Assembly (NCBI RefSeq): GCF_020405225.1
Contig: NZ_CP084472.1
Coordinates: 744,001-808,000, forward strand
Reading direction: 5' to 3'
Length of the DNA stretch: 64,000 bases
Origin: Natrinema sp. DC36
GTDB lineage: Archaea > Halobacteriota > Halobacteria > Halobacteriales > Natrialbaceae
In this document: piece after piece, positions 3,027 to 49,546 of the stretch
Layout of the letters: each line of letters begins with the position of its first letter
Numbering within the stretch: position 1 is the stretch's first letter
Notes under the pieces: generated by a model
Told to the model about the DNA's origin: nothing
Databases searched by the model: none
The model's input: the letters and a program-made list of their open reading frames with translations, nothing else
Position numbers and translations under genes: made by a program

Positions 3027-4553
3027 CTACGCGACGATCGCGGCTGCCGCCTCGGTCGCGGCGTCGGCGATCGGGCCGAACGCCGGCAGGATCAGGACCG
3101 TGATCACTGCGGCGACGATGATCGCCGCGTAGAGCCCGGTCGGCTGGGCGAGTCGATCCCGATCGACGATCGGATCCTCGATCCAGAGCGCCTTGACCAG
3201 CCGCGAGTAGTAGTACAGCGAGAGCGCGCTGTTGACGACGAGCGCGGCGGCGACGAGGAGCAGGGCCGCGTTGTCCGCGGCCGCCTCGATCGTCGCGGTG
3301 TACAGGAGGTACTTGCTCCAGAAGCCGCCGAACAGCGGGATGCCCGCGAGGCTGAACATGAAGACCGCCATCGCGGCGCAGGCGAACGGCGCTTGCTTCG
3401 CGAGGCCGCTGTAGTCCTCGAAGGTGCGGCCGACGCCCCAGTATTCCGCCAGGCCGACGAACAGGAACGCACCCGTGTTCATGAAGCCGTAGACCAGCAG
3501 GTGCATCATGGCTGCTCCCATGACCACCTCGCCGGCGTCGGTCGAAAGGGCCGCCAGCCCGATCAGGACGTAGCCGGCGTGACCGATCGAGGAGTAGGCG
3601 AGCATCCGCTTGACGTTCTCCTGGGTCGCCGCCGCGAAGTTCCCGACCGTCATCGTGACGATTGCAAGGATGACGAACGCCCACGTCCAGTCGACGCCGA
3701 TGACGGCGGTCGTCGCCTCGAGCGGGAACGCCGTCGTGAACACGCGGAAGGCGAGCACGAAGCCGGCGGCCTTCGAGGCCGAGGAGAGGAACGCGGAGAT
3801 CGGCGCGGGCGCGCCCTCGTAGGCCTCGGGCGCCCAGAAGTGGAAGGGGACGCTCGCGGTCTTGAACGCGATCCCGCCGATCAGCATGAGGATCCCGAGA
3901 CCGAGCAATCCGCCCATCTCGCCGGCACCGTCGAGGTTGGCCGCGATCGCCTCGAGTTGCAGCGAGCCGGTCGCCCCGTAGACCAGCGAGACGCCGTAGA
4001 CGAAGATCGCCGACGAGAGCGCCCCGATCAGGAAGTACTTCAGGCCCGCTTCGACGCTGCCGCGGTTGTCCTTCAGGATCGCGACGAGCGCGTACGACGG
4101 CAGGCTCGTTAGCTCGAGCGCGATGAAGATCGTCACGAGACTGTTCGACGCGGCCATCATCGACATCCCGGTCGCCGCGAGGATGATCAGCGAGTAATAC
4201 TCTGCCTGATAGGTGTGGTCTCGCAGGTAATCGTAACTCGCGACCGTGACGAGGGCGGTGACGACCGCGATGATGATCATGAAGTACAGCGCCAGCTGAT
4301 CGACGACGAACTGGCCGTCCATGATATCGATGACGCCGTAGTTGTCGATGCCGGTCGCCCCGACGCCGGCGGCGGTAAACCAGACGGCGACGGCCAGCGA
4401 CGACAGCGACCCGGCGACGGCGGTGCCGGCGAGCAGCGTGCGGTTCGTCGAGCGCGGGTTGATGCTGTCGAGCAGGAACAGGACGAGTGCCGTCCCCGCC
4501 AGGATCAGTGCCGGTGCGAGCGCCGTCCACTCGGGAAGTTCGAGGACCGCCAT
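3027..4553 (-). CDS. nuoN: NADH-quinone oxidoreductase-like subunit N
   Basis: 508 residues, an antiporter-like proton channel subunit of the complex I membrane arm, with about 14 hydrophobic segments. The family signature appears as FFLIGALSSAIFVYGVS-type text, GIAFKTASVPFHFWAPEAYE (the loop before the central lysine helix) and NVKRMLAYSSIGHAGYVLIG. The start ATG overlaps the nuoM stop codon as ATGA, so translation is probably coupled. Last Nuo gene of the operon. Confidence 0.95.
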   Translation of the reverse strand: MAVLELPEWTALAPALILAGTALVLFLLDSINPRSTNRTLLAGTAVAGSLSSLAVAVWFTAAGVGATGIDNYGVIDIMDGQFVVDQLALYFMIIIAVVTALVTVASYDYLRDHTYQAEYYSLIILAATGMSMMAASNSLVTIFIALELTSLPSYALVAILKDNRGSVEAGLKYFLIGALSSAIFVYGVSLVYGATGSLQLEAIAANLDGAGEMGGLLGLGILMLIGGIAFKTASVPFHFWAPEAYEGAPAPISAFLSSASKAAGFVLAFRVFTTAFPLEATTAVIGVDWTWAFVILAIVTMTVGNFAAATQENVKRMLAYSSIGHAGYVLIGLAALSTDAGEVVMGAAMMHLLVYGFMNTGAFLFVGLAEYWGVGRTFEDYSGLAKQAPFACAAMAVFMFSLAGIPLFGGFWSKYLLYTATIEAAADNAALLLVAAALVVNSALSLYYYSRLVKALWIEDPIVDRDRLAQPTGLYAAIIVAAVITVLILPAFGPIADAATEAAAAIVA

Positions 4554-33972: not shown

Positions 33973-34046
33973 GGGCCGGTAGCTCAGTTCGGCAGAGCGT
34001 CTGACTCTTAATCAGACGGTCGCGTGTTCAAATCGCGCCCGGCCCG
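33973..34046 (+). tRNA. tRNA-Lys (anticodon CTT)
   Basis: Acceptor GGGCCGG (33973-33979) pairs with CCGGCCC (34039-34045), discriminator G. Anticodon stem TCTGA/TCAGA surrounds CTCTTAA with CTT as anticodon; T arm GCGTG-TTCAAAT-CGCGC. No intron, no encoded CCA. Its 3' half is the attachment site of the island that follows; pieces of the same sequence recur at 49414-49428 and 49529-49546. Confidence 0.95.
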
Positions 34047-34050
34047 CTTC
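34007..34050 (+). repeat. left attachment site (attL) within tRNA-Lys
   Basis: From the anticodon to just past the tRNA end. Two parts recur at the other end of the island: CTTAATCAGACGGTC at 34007-34021 (15 of 15 at 49414-49428) and the 18 bases 34033-34050 (18 of 18 at 49529-49546). Confidence 0.85.
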
Positions 34051-34748
34051 CTTTCTTCTGGATTGTGAGTTACGCTAATCGGTAGACTGCGTCGTGTCTG
34101 TCTCCAAAATAGCAATTCTCCCCGTTGAGTTGAGTCATTCAGTGAACGACGCCCCGTCACGCCTGGCATCTATCAATAGTTCGCGCGCACACCACTTCAC
34201 CCTGTTGGTCGTTATCATTCTATTCTCTGAGGCGATCAATCGATCCTCCGAACAGACAATAGACAAAATTCCGCCCTACTCAGAGATGTCTATTTTTGAG
34301 TAGTTGTACTGTCACCGCAGACAATAAGGCGCAACAAGAGGGAAGCCCAGCTTTGGTATTTGAGCTGGTCTCAACTACATAACTTTGAATTAGAATATCC
34401 AAAGTCAGGGTATATTTATAACTCTGATGCAAGTCCCTTATGCTAGTCTCAATAATGGTTAAATTCCGCGCGCGTGAGCACCCCACTTCTGATCAAAGGG
34501 GCCCATTATCTTATTATAAAAAGACCTACAGCAATAACAGTCGGGAACGCAGATCTCGGAGATATCTCCGTACCCTCAGTGGCGCGATCCCGAATCGGAG
34601 ATTCGAAACCGGCCACGAACCGCTTAAGGATGGGCCCGCCTGAGGGTTAGACTGCCTCCGCAGGACAGTGCTCGTTGTTCTATCAACTAATTCGGATTAA
34701 ACCGGAACCAGCAAACTTAGACTCGTGTCCGCATGAGGACATCCACCA
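34047..34748. other. non-coding left end of the island
   Basis: No credible gene. It holds first copies of three sequence blocks that recur in the same order at 38.4-38.9 kb: a block at 34141-34170, a cgcgcgcgtgag block at 34469-34500, and the foldable element at 34577-34676. A perfect 14-base palindrome CGGAGATATCTCCG lies at 34557-34570 and a TATA-like ttattataaaaag at 34511-34523. Confidence 0.6.
34577..34676 (+). ncRNA. candidate structured RNA element, copy 1
   Basis: Stem GTGGC (34579-34583)/GCCAC (34612-34616) encloses hairpin CGAATC-GGA-GATTCG (34591-34605). A further hairpin CTG-CCT-CCGC-AGG-A-CAG lies at 34652-34668. Copy 2 at 38825-38924 keeps every stem with paired base changes. 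A TATA-like sequence lies 55-65 bases upstream, so a short transcript is possible. Strand is not certain. No known RNA family recognised. Confidence 0.5.
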
Positions 34749-36281
34749 ATGTGCTTGGAAAGCAAAGATTCAGAAGTAGAATCCAATCTTGATGCCAGTC
34801 TAAAAACACAGGACAAGCCGATCATTGATGCCTTCTCGCATGTGGAACATCAAGCCCTTCTAACAATAGAGACGGCCGAGAAAGTCAATCTAAGCGATTA
34901 ATAAGTACGTAGACAACTGAAAGACCTTGCGAGTCGGGATATTCTGGGAATGGTGGTTCGAAGGACAGATAGGGAAAGAGATATATTGGAACTGTTAGTA
35001 TGTGTGTATATGTCGAAGGTTAAGCCGGACACACCTAACTTAGATATCTCTCGCTCATTCTGGCTCGATCTCGAAACCCCATATGGACTTATTGACGATG
35101 AATGGGATCGATATAGGTCCCAGCTCAACCAATATGTCATAGAGGACTACAGAATAAGTAAGGAATTGTTAAAAGTTCATTGGTGTCTCGAACGAGAATT
35201 AAGCCAAATTCCATATGAACGAGAACCACTACTTAGTCATATTCTTGATGATAATGAAGAATACGGAAAGAACATCCTCTGTGCATATCGATTTGCAAAT
35301 GGAAAGAATAAGAAACGTGTTGTCGCCTGTTTTGAAGAGATAGAAGGGGAAGTTGCCGGTGCGGATTTCATCACTCTCTATGAGGATATTATGGAGTCAG
35401 GGAGTAGAGATGCAATGGTGTCTATGATTCAACTGTTTAAACCAGAGGTACTCCGGAATATATTGGGTCTCCAGTATTGCTACGGTAGGAAACCTCAACT
35501 AATTCGTCACTCAGAGTCTAAATTAGAAAAGTTAGATGCGCTCAATATCGATAAAGTTGCGGAATCACTAGAACACATCACAGACTCGTACCGGCCGTGG
35601 CATAGTTTCACACATGATGAAAAACTCTACTTCCTAATCAAACGTCGTCTCGGAGACGAAGTCGAGAGACAAGTTGATGAAAATCTCGAGGAGGAACCGG
35701 CTGAGTTTGTTGTACTGATTTTTGATGGAACAGAACTCCAGATATTTTCAGAGAAAAAGAAAATCGCGTCTAATGCTCTAAGTGGAATCAATGAAGCCAT
35801 AGAACAGACTTTCCAGGAAGAGGAAGACGATGATGGGATTGATGAAGATGAGATCGAAGACCACCAGTTCGATGATATGGGTCAAGAACTTACTTATGAA
35901 GAGCTCAAGTCCGCAATAGGTCTTGCTAAAGATATTGAAGACAATACTGATTTGGTTCTTAAGGGTGTAAACGTAGAGAACGCTGATCTCCCGAACAGTC
36001 CGGAAATCCAGCTAAAAGCTAACGAAGGTGTTCAGGAAACATTAGATTGGTTCGAAGAGCGAAACGTTGAACTCCTCAATCACCCGGATGATGTGAAAAA
36101 TATTACGTTTGTTTATGAAGGTCGGGACTTCACACTCCTACCTCGGGAAGGCTCATCAAAGGGTGAAGAGGGGTGGATCTTCCGGTATAATGCATCGTAT
36201 CCGAGTGACGAAGAACGCGAAGAGTTTGAGGGGCAAATAAAGGAGTACATGGACGTAGAGGTCCGGTTTGAGAAATCTTGA
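34749..36281 (+). pseudogene. winged-helix gene interrupted by tandem stops (N-terminal wHTH plus unknown body)
   Basis: Reading from the ATG at 34749 gives 50 residues ending in TIETAEKVNLSD, then TAA TAA, then in the same frame VRRQLKDLASRDILGMVVRR and on without a break to 36281. The text across the stops is that of one winged helix-turn-helix domain with the stops in the recognition region. The remaining body can be made as a 443-residue protein from the ATG at 34950. It is very acidic, with an EEEDDDGIDEDEIEDHQFDD stretch near residue 300, and matches no family I know. Whether it is a decayed gene, two proteins, or readthrough is open. The next gene overlaps by four bases. Confidence 0.55.
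34950..36281 (+). CDS. acidic protein of unknown function, body of the split wHTH gene
   Basis: 443 residues if started at the ATG at 34950. Contains no recognised domain beyond the tail of the winged helix. Residues 100-240 look alpha-helical; residues 300-330 are a Glu/Asp-rich linker; the C-terminal 100 residues (NITFVYEGRDFTLLPREG) look like a small alpha/beta domain. The long intact frame with no further stop argues that it is still under selection. It is translationally coupled to the nuclease-like gene downstream, so the two proteins probably act together. Confidence 0.6.
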   Translation: MVVRRTDRERDILELLVCVYMSKVKPDTPNLDISRSFWLDLETPYGLIDDEWDRYRSQLNQYVIEDYRISKELLKVHWCLERELSQIPYEREPLLSHILDDNEEYGKNILCAYRFANGKNKKRVVACFEEIEGEVAGADFITLYEDIMESGSRDAMVSMIQLFKPEVLRNILGLQYCYGRKPQLIRHSESKLEKLDALNIDKVAESLEHITDSYRPWHSFTHDEKLYFLIKRRLGDEVERQVDENLEEEPAEFVVLIFDGTELQIFSEKKKIASNALSGINEAIEQTFQEEEDDDGIDEDEIEDHQFDDMGQELTYEELKSAIGLAKDIEDNTDLVLKGVNVENADLPNSPEIQLKANEGVQETLDWFEERNVELLNHPDDVKNITFVYEGRDFTLLPREGSSKGEEGWIFRYNASYPSDEEREEFEGQIKEYMDVEVRFEKS

Positions 36282-37687
36282 TCAGCTCGAACCATATCCT
36301 AAAAGACGGAAAGACGAATCTGTCTAGTTCTGAGCGTACGAAAGCCAAGGAATTGCAATCGACGGGACTGTGCGAGATTCAGGAGCACCAGTACATAGAC
36401 TGTGTTGATCCCGATGATGAAGACTATTTTCAGATATTAGATAAGGGTTGTAGAGGGAAAATCCAGGTATCTACATCAGATAAGCATACTAGCTGTCCTG
36501 AGTGTGGACGAGACATATACTTATCTGATAAGGATATTAAGCAAAGCTCAAGGATAGCTCTAAAAGAGTCTGGTATCTACAGTTTTGTCCGTGATAAGGT
36601 AAAGGACGTGTTAGAGTGTTCAGTCAGTAAAAAGAGAAACGGATTAGTGTATAACGGTGATCGCCTTGAACCAGTATTTGAGGCTCATACTGACACAGAG
36701 CGGATTACAGTTCATATCCTCCTTGAGCATATCCCTCGAACGACCATCAAATGGCTTCGAATCTACAATCGATCCAGTTTCTTTATACTCCTTGACGGGT
36801 CCTTGAGTTGTTCCGATGAGTTGGATCGACTAGGTCTGCCCTATCTCACAATTAGTGAACTGATCGACAGTGATTCGGAAAAGGCCATTAAAAGCAAATA
36901 TCAAGAGATCACTGAGCGGGGACCTCTTGTAGATATTGAACAACGGGCTTCTATCGCTCTTGAAATGTGTACATCAGATGATGTCCTCAGGCATATGGAT
37001 TGGTCTGACTTTGAGCATTGTGTTGACTCTATGCTAAAATATTCTATCGGTACTTCGCACCTCTATGGTGGAACTGAACCAGGAACTGGAGTTCCTGATG
37101 GCACGCTAACTTTGAATTGGCCTGGTAACGATTGTCTCTACATGTGGGACGCTAAATTTGTTGACTTGTCATCTAATGATGAGACAAATCTGTCTGATGA
37201 ATATAGCAAAATATTCCGCCATCTCCAGGAACTCAATTCGAAGCAACAAACGGAACCCATCTATGACCAGATCCATGGAATATGTTTGTTCTCTCCTGGA
37301 ATTGCGGAAACGAGTATTACTCGTCTCGCGGAATTCATTCAAGAACAAAACCTTCCTTCGGAAACTGAATGGAGAGGTTCGATTTGTTACTTTGGATTAG
37401 ATGCTCTGACTAAGATGACCCAAATGAAGATCGAGAACCGTTCAAATATAAAACAAAAGATGGGGAAGTTCGAGAATGCATTAAATCAATACCTCTCTAC
37501 ACCCGCCAAACATGCTAATGAACCAGAGATGATCAGCAATAGCCAATATCAGGCTGTCCATATCAGCCCAGAGGACATAGAAGCTATTTTCGAATATCTC
37601 TCTGGTCAGAGCAAAGAAACATTTGAATTTGATAAACAAAAACATATGAATTATCTCGAATTTAATTTTTCACTAAGTGATAGCTGA
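36278..37687 (+). CDS. zinc-ribbon protein with PD-(D/E)XK nuclease-like domain
   Basis: 469 residues. Starts with TTG in a TTGA overlap with the stop of the preceding gene. Residues 50-85 hold CRGKI and CPECGRDIY, a probable zinc ribbon. From about residue 225 a restriction-endonuclease-like region follows: HMDWSDFEHCVDSML (helix with Glu, as at the start of Mrr-like folds), GVPDGTL with Asp274, then MWDAKFVD with Asp291 and Lys293. That is the PD...DxK arrangement. No methylase or helicase is adjacent. Likely a nuclease of a two-gene defence or conflict module; targets unknown. Confidence 0.65.
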   Translation: MISSNHILKDGKTNLSSSERTKAKELQSTGLCEIQEHQYIDCVDPDDEDYFQILDKGCRGKIQVSTSDKHTSCPECGRDIYLSDKDIKQSSRIALKESGIYSFVRDKVKDVLECSVSKKRNGLVYNGDRLEPVFEAHTDTERITVHILLEHIPRTTIKWLRIYNRSSFFILLDGSLSCSDELDRLGLPYLTISELIDSDSEKAIKSKYQEITERGPLVDIEQRASIALEMCTSDDVLRHMDWSDFEHCVDSMLKYSIGTSHLYGGTEPGTGVPDGTLTLNWPGNDCLYMWDAKFVDLSSNDETNLSDEYSKIFRHLQELNSKQQTEPIYDQIHGICLFSPGIAETSITRLAEFIQEQNLPSETEWRGSICYFGLDALTKMTQMKIENRSNIKQKMGKFENALNQYLSTPAKHANEPEMISNSQYQAVHISPEDIEAIFEYLSGQSKETFEFDKQKHMNYLEFNFSLSDS

Positions 37688-37895
37688 GATTTCGAGTGAG
37701 ATATACGCTAAATACCCACTCAATAATTGGATCTTCTGTTTTAAATCGAGTCAGGGTCAATTATCCTTGATTCGAAAAGTTCGTCAAAGGCGTCTCTACT
37801 TGTTATTTTTGCTTTTTCTCCTAAGTGTCGACTGGCTCTTGTTATGTAGTGGCGAGCTCTCTGAGCTCACTTCGGTATACATCAAATTTTCTATT

Positions 37896-38132
37896 CTATT
37901 TCGCAATCTTCTCCGCATACTCTGGATCATTCTGATACTCTTCCTCAAACGCTTCCATCCCACGTTCGACGAGCTCGGCCACGCCTTCAGTCCACTTCGG
38001 CCCACCGTCAGAACGTTCGAGAGCCATCTCCTCAAGAATGTAGATCGCCAGTTCCTCTTTTGTCACATCAACTTTACGTGAGGGGCCGAAGTAGACCTCT
38101 ACCCGGCGGTCGTCGTAATCATGCGGAGGCAT
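37896..38132 (-). CDS. small acidic conserved-looking protein
   Basis: 78 residues from the ATG at 38132 (MPPHDYDDRRVEVYFGPSRK). The GC content and acidic composition are those of a real haloarchaeal gene, unlike the AT-rich spacer around it. Mostly helical: ELAIYILEEMALERSDGGPK, then WTEGVAELVERGMEAFEEEY. No family recognised. Convergent with the nuclease-like gene, 208 bases away. Confidence 0.6.
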   Translation of the reverse strand: MPPHDYDDRRVEVYFGPSRKVDVTKEELAIYILEEMALERSDGGPKWTEGVAELVERGMEAFEEEYQNDPEYAEKIAK

Positions 38133-38677
38133 TGAACGCGCACCTCCTGGGATTGTATACAATGCCGTTAGTGTTCTGTGGCGTGTGATCTACGAATAAT
38201 GATATTGCTTGAGCACCCGGAATTCGGCCGGTGTAATTTAATTCCAGCCGGTAAAGGAGTTGATATCGCCCGAGATATCAACCTCGTGGTTCTCAACTAC
38301 TCGTGATTGACGTTATTGACTTTCTAATCGCATTGATCGGCCAAATACCTAACGAGCTCTGTTTAATTTGAATTACCAAGTGAACGGCACCCCGTCATCT
38401 CTGGCATCTAAATGAATATCAAAAGAGGGAATTAGACCAGGAATGAGGTAGTTTATACAGGGGAGATACCGTCCTCTTTGCTCACCATGGGATTGTATCG
38501 GAATATCGGGGTATAGGCGTAATATTCCAGTTTCCGTTCAAACACCCATAATGTAGTTCCAAAATTTAGTATTTTTCGCGCACGAGTTCCCCCCTTCTTG
38601 ATAGGAAGAAGTTTTCACCCGATATAAAAAATAGCGAGATGTTTGATATCTATCTAACTTAACCTCAGTGTACTTGA

Positions 38678-38716
38678 CTGTGGGAGACGAGGTCGGCCTC
38701 GTCTGTCGGACAGTGT
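38678..38716. repeat. extended inverted repeat
   Basis: A perfect 7-base stem with a 4-base loop, GACGAGG-TCGG-CCTCGTC at 38686-38703, enclosed by an outer CTGT/ACAG pair (about 38678-38681 and 38711-38714). It lies about 110 bases upstream of the second structured element. It could be a terminator, an operator or part of a longer RNA. Confidence 0.5.
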
Positions 38717-38802
38717 GATACGCCAGGTTCGTGAGGAATCATCATGGACGTTTTTGAATTTTCACAGATAGACGGCGTAATTTTGAAAGGTGCATGATAC
38801 CG

Positions 38803-38810
38803 TTTATAAC
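38803..38810 (+). promoter_or_regulatory. TATA-like box before structured element copy 2
   Basis: TTTATAAC; transcription would start about 27 bases later, at or near the first base of the element at 38825. Confidence 0.4.
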
Positions 38811-38824
38811 ATACACAGCGACCG

Positions 38825-38924
38825 CAGTAGCACGATCCCGAACCGAAGGTTCGAAATCGGCTACAGACAGCATAGGTATTGGCCCTCAGAGGGTTGGACT
38901 GTTCCGCAAGACAGCACTGCGTTG
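38825..38924 (+). ncRNA. candidate structured RNA element, copy 2
   Basis: Same fold as copy 1: stem GTAGC (38827-38831)/GCTAC (38860-38864), inner hairpin CGAACC-GAA-GGTTCG (38839-38853), later hairpin CTG-TT-CCGC-AA-GA-CAG (38899-38914). Relative to copy 1, the outer stem changes one G-C to A-T, the inner one T-A to C-G, and the third one C-G to T-A, each on both strands. A TATA-like box is well placed for transcription from about 38830. Confidence 0.55.
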
Positions 38925-39698
38925 AAGAGGAGTACGAATCCTCCTGGTCGATCATCATGGACCGGGCACCACAACTCGAGAGTGAATTCCACTACAGTAA
39001 GAATAGAAAGGGTGAAACTCTTGAGTCGAAGTAAGATCACCCGGGGGAGAAAAGCGTCGACGATCAAGGGGGAACGACGTTACTAGGGTGCGATCTAAGC
39101 TACCTCAGTCGATCACCACAACGTTTCGATTTCTTCTGAATGGGATTTCATTAGGGTATCTAGAACTCTTGTGAGAGAGTACAGAGCATCTTCTAAAAAG
39201 ATAGGAAAGATATCGAAGGATATTAATGACCGATATTGACTAGAGACTGACTGTATAACCCCATAGAGAAAAAACCTGAGACCGAGAAAAGAGTTCAAAT
39301 TAGAAGGTTATAATAGATAATATTGTTTTGTCTTTACGGCAAGAGAACACGGACAGGGGGTCTCTGATTATCACGCATTTGGCTTTGAATCATCTAGCGT
39401 GGTTTGATTTTCTTCACAACTACGCTAATCTCGAGATTACTCTTTTTGAACAAGTCAGTTGCATTCTTACAGAGTTGCTCTTCCACTCTATTCTATGCAG
39501 TTCGGGTGATCAGTCGGTAGAAAGGTTCTATCTGTAATACTCGGAACGCGGAACGTAGGTTAGCTATCGTTACATCTGTCACCCATAACCAAATCACTTA
39601 TATCTATCGAGAAACTAGTTCTGTTGAGAGCGTTTTAGGCTGGTCGGCAGTAACGAAGATTACGTTGGAAAGTCGCATGCAAGCCTGATTCCGGCGCT

Positions 39699-39777: not shown

Positions 39778-40451
39778 CATGCGAGAATAATATGCAAACA
39801 AGTTCAGAAACCAACACAACCGTTACAACCGAGTGTGAATGTCCCGACTACCGTGAACCTGCACATCCCCCTGATGATGAGCGGGTGTCCTTCTATGCTC
39901 TAACTCACTCTGGTCAGAGCTCAGAGATACCAGAGAGATCAGATTACTGTTTCACTGGTGGACAATGGCAGACATGGGAGAATATGGGTCCGGACGCAGA
40001 GAATGTAAAATCCACTGCACGTACAACCTTCTATGCTAAGGATCTCCCTGAGAGATACTCCCATCGGACCCATAAGTTCGACCGTTTCTGGACCCTACAA
40101 ATGGGGCGAGGGCATACCTGGGAAGACGATTCCGATAGGAAGTCAATCCGAGAGCGGGAAGACAATCTAAATCGATGTGATGCTATTTTACAGAACTGTG
40201 ACGTTCCAAGATGGGCCCGAACAACTGCCTTATCGCGGGTTCACAGGACTAATCTAGTAGGTTTCAACCGGAATCATAAGGGTATTCATGGAGCATGTAT
40301 CGCCTTCGCCTTACTGATTATGTGTGATAGCCCAGAAGAGGCTCAAGGAACTCGAGTCGCAAAACTGGCTACAACTGTACCAGTTCTAGATAGAGAAATA
40401 GTCGATATGGTGATCGATTATGCATTTCGGAAATATGGGGATGCAAATTAA
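39765..40451 (+). CDS. replication-module protein of unknown function
   Basis: 228 residues from a leaderless GTG, or 219 from the ATG at 39792. No family recognised. The N-terminal third is polar with CECPDYREP; the middle contains RFWTLQMGRGHTWEDDSDRK; the last 90 residues are helical with RWARTTALSRVHRTNLVGFN and a hydrophobic GACIAFALLIMCDSPEEA. That last part has the look of a cyclin/TFB-like helical repeat, but I would not claim it. It overlaps the primase gene by one base (TAATG), so the two are one operon. Confidence 0.6.
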   Translation: MQVGSCENNMQTSSETNTTVTTECECPDYREPAHPPDDERVSFYALTHSGQSSEIPERSDYCFTGGQWQTWENMGPDAENVKSTARTTFYAKDLPERYSHRTHKFDRFWTLQMGRGHTWEDDSDRKSIREREDNLNRCDAILQNCDVPRWARTTALSRVHRTNLVGFNRNHKGIHGACIAFALLIMCDSPEEAQGTRVAKLATTVPVLDREIVDMVIDYAFRKYGDAN

Positions 40452-41419
40452 TGTCTTCTGAGAATGGACCGCAGAGACAACACGGATGGGGGTTAGTTCC
40501 TAAAGAACTCCGTGGACGAGATCAGTGGGTCGTTACGACGAACAAGGTACCCGTCATACCTGCAAAAGGATGGCAGAAATATGAGAATCAAATGGCCTTC
40601 CAGAAGGCATGTCGTCTGTCTAACCGTCAGAACGGTGAACCGGCATATGTACTTCTCCCAGATGATCCATTCGTCATAATCGACTTCGATGATATAGGAC
40701 CTCCAAAACCAACAAAGGTCAGTGACGAGGTGGCTGAAATCGTTAAACGACTCAACACCTATGTAGAAGCCAGCCGTTCCCAGACTGGGCTCCATCTAGT
40801 GTGTAAAGGTACACGTCTTCCTGATCGAAATGAAAAAGCTGAACTCAAGGATAGGGGGACAATCGAAGTGTATGACTCAGGGCAATATGTAGTCCTAACT
40901 GGAAATCAGCTAGACCCATATGATTCAGTCAGGTGTTTCAACCAAGGAAGTACCAACGAGTGCAATCCACTCATCGACCTCCAGCGCACGTATCTTCCTG
41001 AACAAACTGAATCGGTCAATACGAATAAAGAATACAGCGATTACGAGCTTAGTAGCGCATCTGATAGATCACTAAATCTCACTTCTAAGGATATCAGAAG
41101 AACTCTGGAAGAGTATACAAAGGATGGTAGTTCAAAAGCAGAGCGAGCTCTCAGTCGATGGAATTCACCAGCAGAATCCGCCTATAGGTTTCCAACGGCC
41201 TCAGAGGCAGATCTCGCCTTCGTCTCTGATCTCGCGTTCTGGTGTCAGGAAGACGCTCAGCTAATGGAGGACTGTTTCCGCTCATCACAACGGATGCGCT
41301 CAAAGTGGGATATAGTCCACTACAGTGATGGACGAACTTACGGTGAAGGAACTATTCAAACGGCCATCCGATCAAACTATGATATCTTTTCTGGTCATCA
41401 TGTAACGATCTCTGATTAA
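40451..41419 (+). CDS. archaeo-eukaryotic primase (prim-pol) family replication protein
   Basis: 322 residues. Residues 15-150 match the primase-polymerase fold used by plasmids and viruses: WVVTTNKVPVIPAKGWQKYE, FVIIDFDDIG with the metal aspartates Asp78 and Asp80, SRSQTGLHLVCKG with His115, and GTIEVYDSGQYVVLTG. The C-terminal 90 residues (SEADLAFVSDLAFWCQEDAQ, FRSSQRMRSKWD) are the small helical domain that often links prim-pol to a helicase, but no helicase follows. It probably primes or starts replication of the excised element using a host helicase. Confidence 0.8.
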   Translation: MSSENGPQRQHGWGLVPKELRGRDQWVVTTNKVPVIPAKGWQKYENQMAFQKACRLSNRQNGEPAYVLLPDDPFVIIDFDDIGPPKPTKVSDEVAEIVKRLNTYVEASRSQTGLHLVCKGTRLPDRNEKAELKDRGTIEVYDSGQYVVLTGNQLDPYDSVRCFNQGSTNECNPLIDLQRTYLPEQTESVNTNKEYSDYELSSASDRSLNLTSKDIRRTLEEYTKDGSSKAERALSRWNSPAESAYRFPTASEADLAFVSDLAFWCQEDAQLMEDCFRSSQRMRSKWDIVHYSDGRTYGEGTIQTAIRSNYDIFSGHHVTISD

Positions 41420-41793
41420 TAACAGCGGTTGGTGATACGATTACTTTATTTAGAATTGGGTACAGAACTGAAACGTCTGGCTCTGTTGGAATCATATTAT
41501 TCATAGTATTTTATCGTGAACCATATGCCCACTTCATGTGCGGACTGACAGCTATTACTTCTATCAGCTGTCAGTGATGATGACAAAGCCGTGCTGAATA
41601 CAGTGCGCGAATGTGGCACTCGGTAGAGCGCGATCTACGTGAAGGGTCGAACGCTCAGTATAGGTGAGACACATATCCTTCGGTAGAGAATCAAAGAATA
41701 ATAGGGTAGCTGACAGACTATGTATGTACGTTCATTCTCATCTCTGAGGCAGGTTTGGAAAGTTTTTTGCTGATGACAACACAATCATATCTA
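41420..41793. other. non-coding region with hairpin and repeated motif
   Basis: Contains a perfect 9-base inverted repeat CTGACAGCT/AGCTGTCAG (41545-41553 and 41566-41574), then at 41591-41619 a GTGC...GCAC hairpin containing GCGCGAATGTGGCAC, a motif that recurs at 43112-43126. The piece ggcactcggtagagcg resembles a tRNA D arm and ggtcgaacg a T loop, so a decayed tRNA is possible. Confidence 0.45.
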
Positions 41794-42903: not shown

Positions 42904-43226
42904 ATATGTATATCAATCTGGAATAATAATATCTCTTTGGTAGGATCAGAGGTGACTTTGTCCATCACGAAATACGCAACTGTAGTGGACGGATAGTTCA
43001 CCAGCCTCGTCGTGAAATAAACTCGGTTGCCGTGCTGTACTCATCCTCTGTATCTTGCAGACCGCTTCTGACAACAGATCGGTATTTCGTTGAGTCTTTG
43101 CAAGATACAGGGCGCGAATGTAGCACAGACTGAGAGACGGTCTGCGAAGGATAGTGATCGGTGAGTACAAGACGGATTTATGGAAACGCTCAAGAAACAG
43201 GGCACTGTGGTCAAACCCAGACCCAT
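42904..43226 (+). promoter_or_regulatory. structured leader upstream of the Panacea-nuclease-TGT operon
   Basis: Perfect 12-base inverted repeat at 43048-43059 and 43099-43110 (CTGTATCTTGCA and its complement). The segment GCAGACCG (43057-43064) can alternatively pair with CGGTCTGC (43138-43145), and CAGAC (43126-43130) with GTCTG (43140-43144), so at least two folds exclude each other. GCGCGAATGTAGCAC at 43112-43126 repeats a motif from 41605-41619. Could be an attenuator, operator or separate RNA. Confidence 0.5.
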
Positions 43227-43724
43227 ATGCCACGAATCGACCAAATAGACCGACGGACAGATGTGGTATTCATTCTTTTCCACCACGCGGGGTCGATTCA
43301 AGGCGTCACAAAGCTCCAGAAGCTCCTTTTTCTCGTCGAGGAGGAGACTGAGTTCTTCGAAAAGTATGGCCCCGAACTAGCTTTCGAGTTCACTGCTCAC
43401 AAAATGGGGCCGTTCTCGAAGCACGTTTATGAGGAAATCCGCTTCCTCCAGCAGCTAAAAGCGATTGAGACTGAGCCAATGGCAGGCGATTCCGACGGCG
43501 AAGAGTTTACAAACAAGGTATTTTATATCACTCCGAAGGGAGAGAAAATCGCATCCCAACTGTCAAACCAACTTGACGCTGAGTACGATGAGGAACTCAG
43601 AGCGTTAGTTGAGAAATATAACCCGATGGAGTTGCGAGAATTGCTCCGATACGTATACGAGGAATACCCTGCATTCACAACGGAGTCAGAGATTAAAGAC
43701 GAAATATTGGTGGAGACCGCATAA
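43227..43724 (+). CDS. Panacea/SocA-like (DUF4065) domain protein
   Basis: 165 residues from the ATG at 43227. VTKLQKLLFLVEEETEFFEK followed by FEFTAHKMGPFSKHVYEEIR is the recognisable core of the YwgA/SocA/Panacea group: a helical domain that starts with a K-L-Q-K-L-L-F/Y helix and has the GPFS..VY loop. Known members act as antitoxins that neutralise very different toxins, or as proteolysis adaptors. Its stop overlaps the start of the next gene (TAATG). First gene of a three-gene operon; by analogy it may hold the next two in check. Confidence 0.75.
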   Translation: MPRIDQIDRRTDVVFILFHHAGSIQGVTKLQKLLFLVEEETEFFEKYGPELAFEFTAHKMGPFSKHVYEEIRFLQQLKAIETEPMAGDSDGEEFTNKVFYITPKGEKIASQLSNQLDAEYDEELRALVEKYNPMELRELLRYVYEEYPAFTTESEIKDEILVETA

Positions 43725-48330: not shown

Positions 48331-49329
48331 TTAGATATTATCTAGATATTCCCGTCGTTGCGACATTTTCTCTTTTTCAGTCATCTCGTTGTAGTGTTTG
48401 TCCATTACATCGGGACTCACATCACTTCGTCCCGAGACTACTTCTTTTGGAACATCATTTCGTATCATATGTGTTATTGACCCACGTCGGAACGCGTGAG
48501 GACTGACAGCATCGTCGCATTTGTGGATTCGCTCGTAACTGTGCTCGTTAACATCACAGGAGCAGTCGTCTCCGAGGAACTGTGGCGATGACACTAAATA
48601 CACGTTTTTCCGGATATTGGAGCGACTGATACGACCATAGTTGGTGGCAACGAGAGGTGTCCGTCCATACTCATCGTTGGTCCTGGGATGACGATGCTCG
48701 ATCCAGTCTTCAATCACGTGAGTTGTATCTTCCGAGAGTGCCACGGAACGCTCTCCACTCTGCCCGTTCTTCAGTGGTGTACCATACTCATCCCGGTGTT
48801 TGAGCTCGAGGTAGCCATCCTTGAGACTGACATCGTCTACGTCGAGCGAGCGTAGGGACCCCATCCGCATTGCAGTACGCCAGAGTAGGAGGACGATGAC
48901 GTGCCTTAGGCTAGCGTAATCGAATCGGTCGAGTTTCTCGAGTATACGCTGAACGTGTTCCTCTTCAATCTGTACTGATCGGACACCATCTCCATTCCGT
49001 AACTCAGGCATATCCACCTTCTCGTGGAGATTAGGGTGTACTGCGTCGATTGACTCCCAGAACTTGATCGCTTGTTTGAGGGTAGAGAGCTGAGTCCGAA
49101 CGGAAACTCGATTCAGTTCGCCATCCTGTTTTCTCCATTGTTGAAATTCGAATAGCTTCCGTCCGTTGAGTTCATTAAGGTTATTAATGGACTGTTCGTC
49201 ACACCAACGAACGAAATGTTTGAGTCGGAGTCTATGGGCATTGTGTGTTGACTTTGCAACATTATTTTGACGCTGCTTGAGATACATCTGGACTGCGTGT
49301 TCTGGTTCGAGTGGTTCTAATTTTGTCAT
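48331..49329 (-). CDS. tyrosine recombinase/integrase
   Basis: 332 residues from the ATG at 49329 (MTKLEPLEPEHAVQMYLKQR). Residues 10-95 are a SAM-like core-binding domain. Catalytic residues: Arg in RTAMRMGSLRSLDVDD, Lys probably in LKHRDEYGTPLKNG, His-x-x-Arg in SPHAFRRGSITHM, and the nucleophile Tyr in MDKHYNEM. The frame stays open to 49587, through the attachment site, but that part has no family character. Located at the right end of the island, reading inward, it is the likely enzyme for integration into tRNA-Lys. Confidence 0.9.
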   Translation of the reverse strand: MTKLEPLEPEHAVQMYLKQRQNNVAKSTHNAHRLRLKHFVRWCDEQSINNLNELNGRKLFEFQQWRKQDGELNRVSVRTQLSTLKQAIKFWESIDAVHPNLHEKVDMPELRNGDGVRSVQIEEEHVQRILEKLDRFDYASLRHVIVLLLWRTAMRMGSLRSLDVDDVSLKDGYLELKHRDEYGTPLKNGQSGERSVALSEDTTHVIEDWIEHRHPRTNDEYGRTPLVATNYGRISRSNIRKNVYLVSSPQFLGDDCSCDVNEHSYERIHKCDDAVSPHAFRRGSITHMIRNDVPKEVVSGRSDVSPDVMDKHYNEMTEKEKMSQRREYLDNI

Positions 49330-49413
49330 TTGTCCGCCTCTAGATGCCAGGTGTCGACGGAAAGTTGCCCACTGGTTGAGGGGAAGTGAGTTGATAGTCC
49401 GGCAGGACAGGCC

Positions 49414-49546
49414 CTTAATCAGACGGTCCGTGTCTCCTTTGCGTGTTCGCGCGTAAGCGCTAACCGCAAAGACTGCTGGTTCGGCGTCCCGGGAGCTACT
49501 GCACCCCGGCACCGCAACCAGAATCATCTCGCGCCCGGCCCGCTTC
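49414..49546. repeat. right attachment site (attR), interrupted
   Basis: CTTAATCAGACGGTC at 49414-49428 and 18 bases at 49529-49546 match tRNA-Lys exactly, but are separated by 100 bases instead of 11. The intervening segment folds into two nested hairpins: CTTTGCG/CGCAAAG (49437-49443, 49465-49471) with an inner GCGC-GTAA-GCGC, and TGGTT/AACCA (49477-49481, 49516-49520) with an inner CCGGG/CCCGG. Confidence 0.75.

Follow-up and report, generated by a model that had tools for sequence, protein, structure and literature searches.

The 64,000-nucleotide (nt) stretch of the Natrinema sp. DC36 genome analysed here (the window; contig NZ_CP084472.1, positions 744,001 to 808,000) carries, behind a tRNA-Lys gene, two copies of a sequence of about 100 bases. 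This raises the question of what this sequence, here called D1, is, and why the window contains it twice. The repeat, proposed in a preliminary description of the window, is real: in a local comparison positions 34574–34677 and 38822–38924 aligned over 105 columns, 80 of them identical (76%), with 3 gaps (E 1e-14), and the rest of the genome gave no further match at that level. The sole other long similarity between the two places is a 32-nt block, D2, that is 84% identical between its window copies. The comparison of D1 with nine copies from beyond the window indicates, with high confidence, that it is a structured RNA with a conserved fold.

The preliminary description had read the element on the plus strand, where both copies give several A.C mismatches. 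This reading was wrong, as the minus strand fits both copies and makes every pair of one long hairpin (hairpin A) standard in each, some as G.U. Hairpin A has 14 Watson-Crick and 3 G.U pairs in copy 1 (w1), where none of 500 shuffles was as stable, and 15 Watson-Crick and 2 G.U pairs in copy 2 (w2). Compared with dinucleotide shuffles, the folds of the two copies have z values of -3.25 and -2.36 on the minus strand versus -0.54 and -1.50 on the plus strand. Three stems with paired changes had been claimed, and two of these (GTGGC/GCCAC to GTAGC/GCTAC and CGAATC/GATTCG to CGAACC/GGTTCG) stay paired, as segments of a single continuous 17-pair hairpin. The third (CCT/AGG to TT/AA around CCGC) loses one pair in copy 2 and is not retained as a paired unit in the relatives (alignments read by eye). 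The TATA box assigned to copy 2 lies on the plus strand, 17–24 nt before the hairpin, and is thus not upstream of the proposed minus strand; with that direction of reading it drops out of the argument.

The copies beyond the window comprise two in Natronorubrum bangense JCM 10635 (nb1, nb2), three in the record IMGVR_UViG_2756170196_000002 (G422; v422a, v422b, and v422c) and one each in genomes G043, G113, G077, and G094. Several routes led to them. A scan of species-genome contigs for the core pattern gave 48 stretches, the one haloarchaeal stretch being the N. bangense locus, and the same scan of viral contigs gave a single, short chance match. Integrase similarity led to G043, a tailed provirus at tRNA-Lys with D2 and D1, the N. 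bangense leader used as a query led to G113, and the small terminase (TerS) of G043 and G113 used as a protein query led to G422, which a model built from the two window copies (R1) then matched at E 1.2e-8. Two more D1 copies lie in G422 in opposite orientation (v422b and v422c), and these rest on low scores (13.3 bits with R1; 14.0 and 19.5 bits with R2). The latter model, R2, was built from nb2, G043, and G113 only. It recovered both window copies (w1 at 34556–34668, minus strand, E 3e-4; w2 at 38843–38914, minus strand, E 0.06), nb1, and G422, all on the expected strand, and it added G077, from the genus of the window, and G094.

Among 125 genomes of the family, R1 gave matches in 23 at E up to 1, with one credible weak match (G101), and R2 in 11 at E up to 0.02; over the order, R1 matched 15 of 392 genomes at E 0.1 and R2 5 of 308 at 0.005. 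The R2 matches that we kept were those in G000, G077, G043, G094, and G113, and two of the three in G101, while those in which the hairpin did not follow the core or which looked coding were dropped (G034, G097, G120, G121, G122, G308, G134, and the third in G101). D1 was accepted with R2 in 6 of the 125 family genomes, plus one IMG/VR record, and none was accepted outside the family among the 308 genomes drawn from the order. Also dropped were L169:2409-2530 (E 0.06), although its score equals that of w2, and L035/L067 (E 0.0036), which are core-like but fall where a gene for an aldo-keto reductase begins. From a set of 21 R1 loci, two of them empty, only the window copies and L028 (N. bangense) were retained. 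BLAST of the copy-2 element over the 125 genomes gave 18 places, of which 17 appear to be chance or coding and only the window copy is real. When plasmids, phages, and viral contigs were searched with D2, the leader, the elements themselves, and neighbouring DNA, the sole find was a Natronococcus plasmid. It is NZ_CP099392.1 (392,952 bp) from Natronococcus sp. CG52, and the D1 of G094 is flanked there by a PadR gene on one side and a hypothetical gene on the other. The record IMGVR 2554235483, whose small terminase is 99% like that of G043, had no D1 match and ends about 0.6 kb upstream of TerS. Overall, D1 occurs both in tailed haloviruses and in integrative elements, all from a single haloarchaeal family that its named members identify as Natrialbaceae.

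In the RNA sense, D1 runs 5' to 3' from a pyrimidine-rich stretch through a core to hairpin A immediately after it. The core is mostly unpaired and reads approximately CCYAUCCUUNUGCGGUU in most copies. Hairpin A, of 13–17 pairs, stands directly 3' of the core in all 11 copies, and its letters are poorly conserved (median identity 0.35 for loop-anchored 5' arms). In the sense of the window minus strand, its arms hold 153 Watson-Crick, 13 G.U, and 1 A.C pairs over the 11 copies, which argues for an RNA read from the minus strand; the scoring of the arm alignment ranks G.U above A.C and hence favours G.U, two of the 13 G.U pairs are common to w1 and w2, and the sole A.C is at the base of v422c. 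Joined to their own partners the arms form 166 pairs, compared with at most 157 when the 3' arms were permuted 20,000 times, and each hairpin A was more stable than all 500 shuffles of its own letters, shuffles that preserve base composition only. Kin copies (w1 and w2; g077 and g094) are not independent. The earlier proposal that the fold is under selection was thus borne out by the nine added copies, in which the hairpin holds its position although its letters differ, and a check for homologues lacking the pairing came out in favour of the fold.

Further details of the stem vary between copies. A tandem G.A is found at its base in six copies by pair lists (g043, g113, g077, g094, nb1, and nb2) and in v422c by eye, and in nb1 and nb2 it comes with an added U.U. 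The pair closing next to GA/GA is C-G in g043, g113, nb1, and nb2 and U-A in g077 and g094. The 3-nt bulge that in a kink-turn lies beside tandem G.A is absent from the GA/GA copies. A single bulge occurs in the 3' arm of w1, w2, and v422a and in the 5' arm of v422b. Seven of the 11 copies have a second hairpin after hairpin A (folds read by eye), and in some folds a second box (CUGCGGAG) pairs with the core, a pairing that is G.U-rich and was not relied upon.

The preliminary description had recognised no RNA family in D1, and Rfam has no match for it. Rfam release 15 gave no match above the gathering score for the element in the window, its relatives, or the region, with only tRNA genes nearby; over the window it found two tRNAs only, and over the D1 region at E 10 there were chance matches only. 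ARAGORN called a tRNA-Arg (GCG) at 34600–34697 (minus strand) in copy 1, which resembles a tRNA in having a 7-nt loop, CTGCGGA, and a U at the position expected in an anticodon loop, and this loop probably caused a false call. There was no Rfam tRNA match for copy 1 at E 10, its arms do not make a tRNA (by eye), and ARAGORN predicts no tRNA in copy 2. D1 is thus a candidate structured-RNA family, and its kept pairing under changing letters suggests an uncatalogued regulatory RNA of viruses. No literature on such an element was found in a search that subscription journals mostly fell outside of.

The position of D1 in viruses bears on its role. In the tailed proviruses G043, G113, and G422, one D1 lies upstream of, and on the same strand as, a set of small open reading frames (ORFs), TerS, the large terminase (TerL), and portal genes; these packaging genes were assigned by family matches in G043 and G422 and by 60–78% identity to G043 in G113. 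An HNH gene ahead of TerS-TerL was seen in G043 and read in G422. The other two G422 copies face a set of leftward genes that includes Prim-Pol. A non-coding stretch of about 300 nt separates D1 from the start of the packaging operon; N. bangense also has this stretch (77% identity to G043 over 214 nt), and it is likewise conserved among G113, G422, and G421.

As a tentative explanation we favour that D1 is a cis-acting leader RNA of viruses and integrative elements that works like the put RNA of the lambdoid phage HK022. We infer that D1 would be transcribed from the minus strand of the window, from 34672 to 34557 and from 38920 to about 38808, and would act in cis on the transcript carrying it. 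Most simply, it would bind RNA polymerase or an RNA-binding protein and thereby regulate elongation or the expression of downstream genes. The window copies would then read toward D2 and the attachment site (att) and, in an excised circle, toward the integrase. The put RNA is an element of about 70 nt with two stem-loops, present in two copies (putL and putR) downstream of two early promoters, and it acts directly on RNA polymerase (PMC9378689). D1 is similar in being compact, in occurring in more than one copy per virus (G422), and in lying near the head of divergent operons; a build of two stem-loops may also be common to both, with hairpin A in all 11 copies of D1 and a second hairpin in 7. 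The two differ in that put acts on a bacterial RNA polymerase and sits at early promoters, whereas D1 is archaeal, stands before a packaging operon as well, and contains a core that is conserved and unpaired. The stronger proposal, in which D1 is a put-like elongation-control RNA that tailed haloviruses place before divergent operons, that reprograms the RNA polymerase of archaea, and that companion integrative elements also carry, appears unlikely to us.

Several observations weigh against a leader RNA. TATA-like sites 55–160 nt from the hairpin were no better than shuffles near any of the 11 copies on either strand (p at least 0.25; the box of copy 2 itself was not scored), and at G043 and G113, where such sites look good by eye, the scan gave the same p of at least 0.25 and no promoter is claimed. 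The tailed provirus G421, with the closest integrase (78%), has the stretch of about 300 nt and no clear D1, and no late operon lies behind D1 in the tRNA-Lys elements and the Natronococcus plasmid. Copies found with R1 or R2 were partly chosen for their pairing; for nb1, nb2, g043, and g113, first detection came through the core sequence. Lastly, the study of the haloarchaeal tailed virus HFTV1 reports no indication of antitermination (PMC12542753), so that a put-like mechanism would be without precedent in archaea and is unsupported by that virus.

Of the other explanations, a trans-acting small RNA, either a regulator or an immunity factor, is one that we consider doubtful. The core would pair with a target and the variable stems would serve as its holder, and a conserved, pyrimidine-rich, unpaired core beside hairpins of free sequence is what such an RNA would look like. 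The CI/c4 antisense RNAs of P4 are an example of this kind of regulator. A small RNA explains best the copies with no gene behind them; against it stands the position of D1 ahead of operons in the viruses.

It is rather unlikely that D1 and the conserved stretch behind it are a DNA-packaging signal (cos/pac) of tailed viruses, with the elements that lack structural genes being satellites that use a helper. Phage satellites such as P4 and the phage-inducible chromosomal islands (PICI) carry cos/pac regions, and D1 likewise sits beside terminase genes in viruses and has been retained by integrated elements that have no structural genes. It lies just upstream of HNH-TerS-TerL in all three carriers. 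The window island has an integrase and, within the scope scanned, no structural genes, as a satellite would: no PHROGs structural or packaging match was found in the 12 larger island ORFs scanned, and tblastn of TerL, TerS, and portal gave no match in the window or the N. bangense islands. A packaging signal explains best why elements without a terminase retain D1. Against it, the G.U bias and tandem G.A indicate RNA, three copies occur in one virus in several orientations, two of them distant from the terminase, and one copy sits on a plasmid.

It is improbable that the hairpin works as DNA, as an operator or a recombination or replication site. Such a site would fit the closeness to D2 and att in w1, w2, nb1, and g077, and the fact that no promoter was seen, but 13 G.U pairs to 1 A.C and the GA/GA are expected for a one-strand RNA and not for a DNA palindrome. 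An origin of the copies from a decayed protein-coding gene is highly improbable and largely refuted by stops: ORFs 34440–34643 and 38790–39086 do overlap the element, which corrects the earlier statement that no coding frame covers either copy, and several differences fall at third positions (by eye), but no frame is open in all 11 copies or stop-free in more than 7, single-base indels separate the copies, and the 98-aa ORF has no PHROGs match.

Why the window has two copies is most likely explained by two related elements in tandem at tRNA-Lys, with the D1 copies at their left ends and the outer element reduced (Table 1). This is because the second D2-D1 set lies within the first. The copy-to-copy spacings of the two blocks are nearly equal (4238 and 4248), so that the repeated unit is a left end, about 550 nt long, whose middle has diverged. 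A duplicated RNA gene was considered and set aside in favour of the left ends of tandem integrated elements. An inverted CTGGCATCTA precedes the integrase at 49341, and the window integrase is 67% identical to that of N. bangense, 65% to that of G043, and 78% to that of G421. A degenerate att remnant near 38265 was suggested by eye only.

Table 1. Positions of D1, its parts and associated features in the window, and of the stretch behind D1 in relatives.
Feature	Position	Strand	Remarks
tRNA-Lys (CTT), integration site	33973..34047	+	ARAGORN; same tRNA in N. bangense, G043, G077
D2, outer element	34141..34171	+	Possible integrase arm site (role inferred)
D1 copy 1 (w1)	34557..34672	-	From pyrimidine-rich 5' part through hairpin 1; shares 76% identity with copy 2
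Hairpin 1, copy 1	34557..34570	-	CGGAGATATCTCCG; from folds
Hairpin A, copy 1	34579..34616	-	17 pairs around a 3-nt loop; 3' arm with one bulged C
Conserved core, copy 1	34617..34634	-	RNA sense CCCAUCCUUAAGCGGUUC; 11-copy alignment
D2, inner element	38379..38409	+	Sequence comparison
D1 copy 2 (w2)	38808..38920	-	3' limit about 38808; without clear hairpin 1; 76% identical to copy 1
Hairpin A, copy 2	38827..38864	-	17 pairs around a 3-nt loop; 3' arm with one bulged U
Core, copy 2	38865..38882	-	RNA sense CCAAUACCUAUGCUGUCU; 11-copy alignment
Prim-Pol/HBD replication protein, inner element	40451..41419	+	Pfam NrS-1 HBD E 2.7e-22; PHROGs DNA primase E 2e-46
Tyrosine integrase of island	48331..49332	-	Pfam Phage_integrase E 8e-14
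attR core CGCGCCCGGCCCGC	49530..49543	+	Exact repeat of 34034-34047
Stretch of about 300 nt behind D1	L169:3440-3760, L162:8990-9300, L165:1180-1480, L154:8560-8880, L066:5050-5265

The N. bangense island has the same layout as the window (tRNA-Lys with attL, D2, integrase, attR), its attR is alike in 35 of 37 nt, and its second, partly decayed D1 lies between tRNA-Lys and a second D2. D2 is found twice there and also in G043 and G077. In the tRNA-Lys elements D1 is mostly close to the integrase-linked left end (D2), at a distance of about 100–500 nt in w1, w2, nb1, and g077 and about 5 kb in nb2; in G043 the two are about 24 kb apart. G077, where only a remnant of a tRNA-Lys element is left, has tRNA-Lys, repeated att cores, D2, and D1, then chromosomal genes, and at L206:12590-13230 several tandem att-like cores behind its tRNA-Lys were noted as traces of repeated integration. 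The N. bangense island encodes DndC, DndD, DndA, and Pbe proteins, a system for which JCM 10635 is the strain of description (PMC6459918).

Other observations concern the remaining contents of the islands. A winged-helix-like frame from 34750 (plus strand) is broken by two adjacent stops near 34899, and its remainder is the ORF 34950–36281. At 43161–43724 (plus strand), a SocA/Panacea antitoxin-like domain (Pfam E 1.2e-5) is followed by an unassigned 163-aa ORF, and the two are a possible toxin-antitoxin pair. A short non-coding repeat of the form GTGCTGAATACAG..GCGCGAATG..GCAC occurs at 41586–41660 and 43014–43167 in the window and at 3412–3470 and 4542–4615 of L066 in the N. bangense island; it is 75–78% identical between the two islands and may be a transposon end.

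The structured RNAs of archaeal viruses are little described. D1 is compact, can be searched for with a usable model, and has named hosts in N. bangense JCM 10635 and Natronococcus sp. CG52, so that RNA control in archaeal viruses can be addressed directly. The question it opens is whether these viruses steer elongation, expression, or packaging via RNA.

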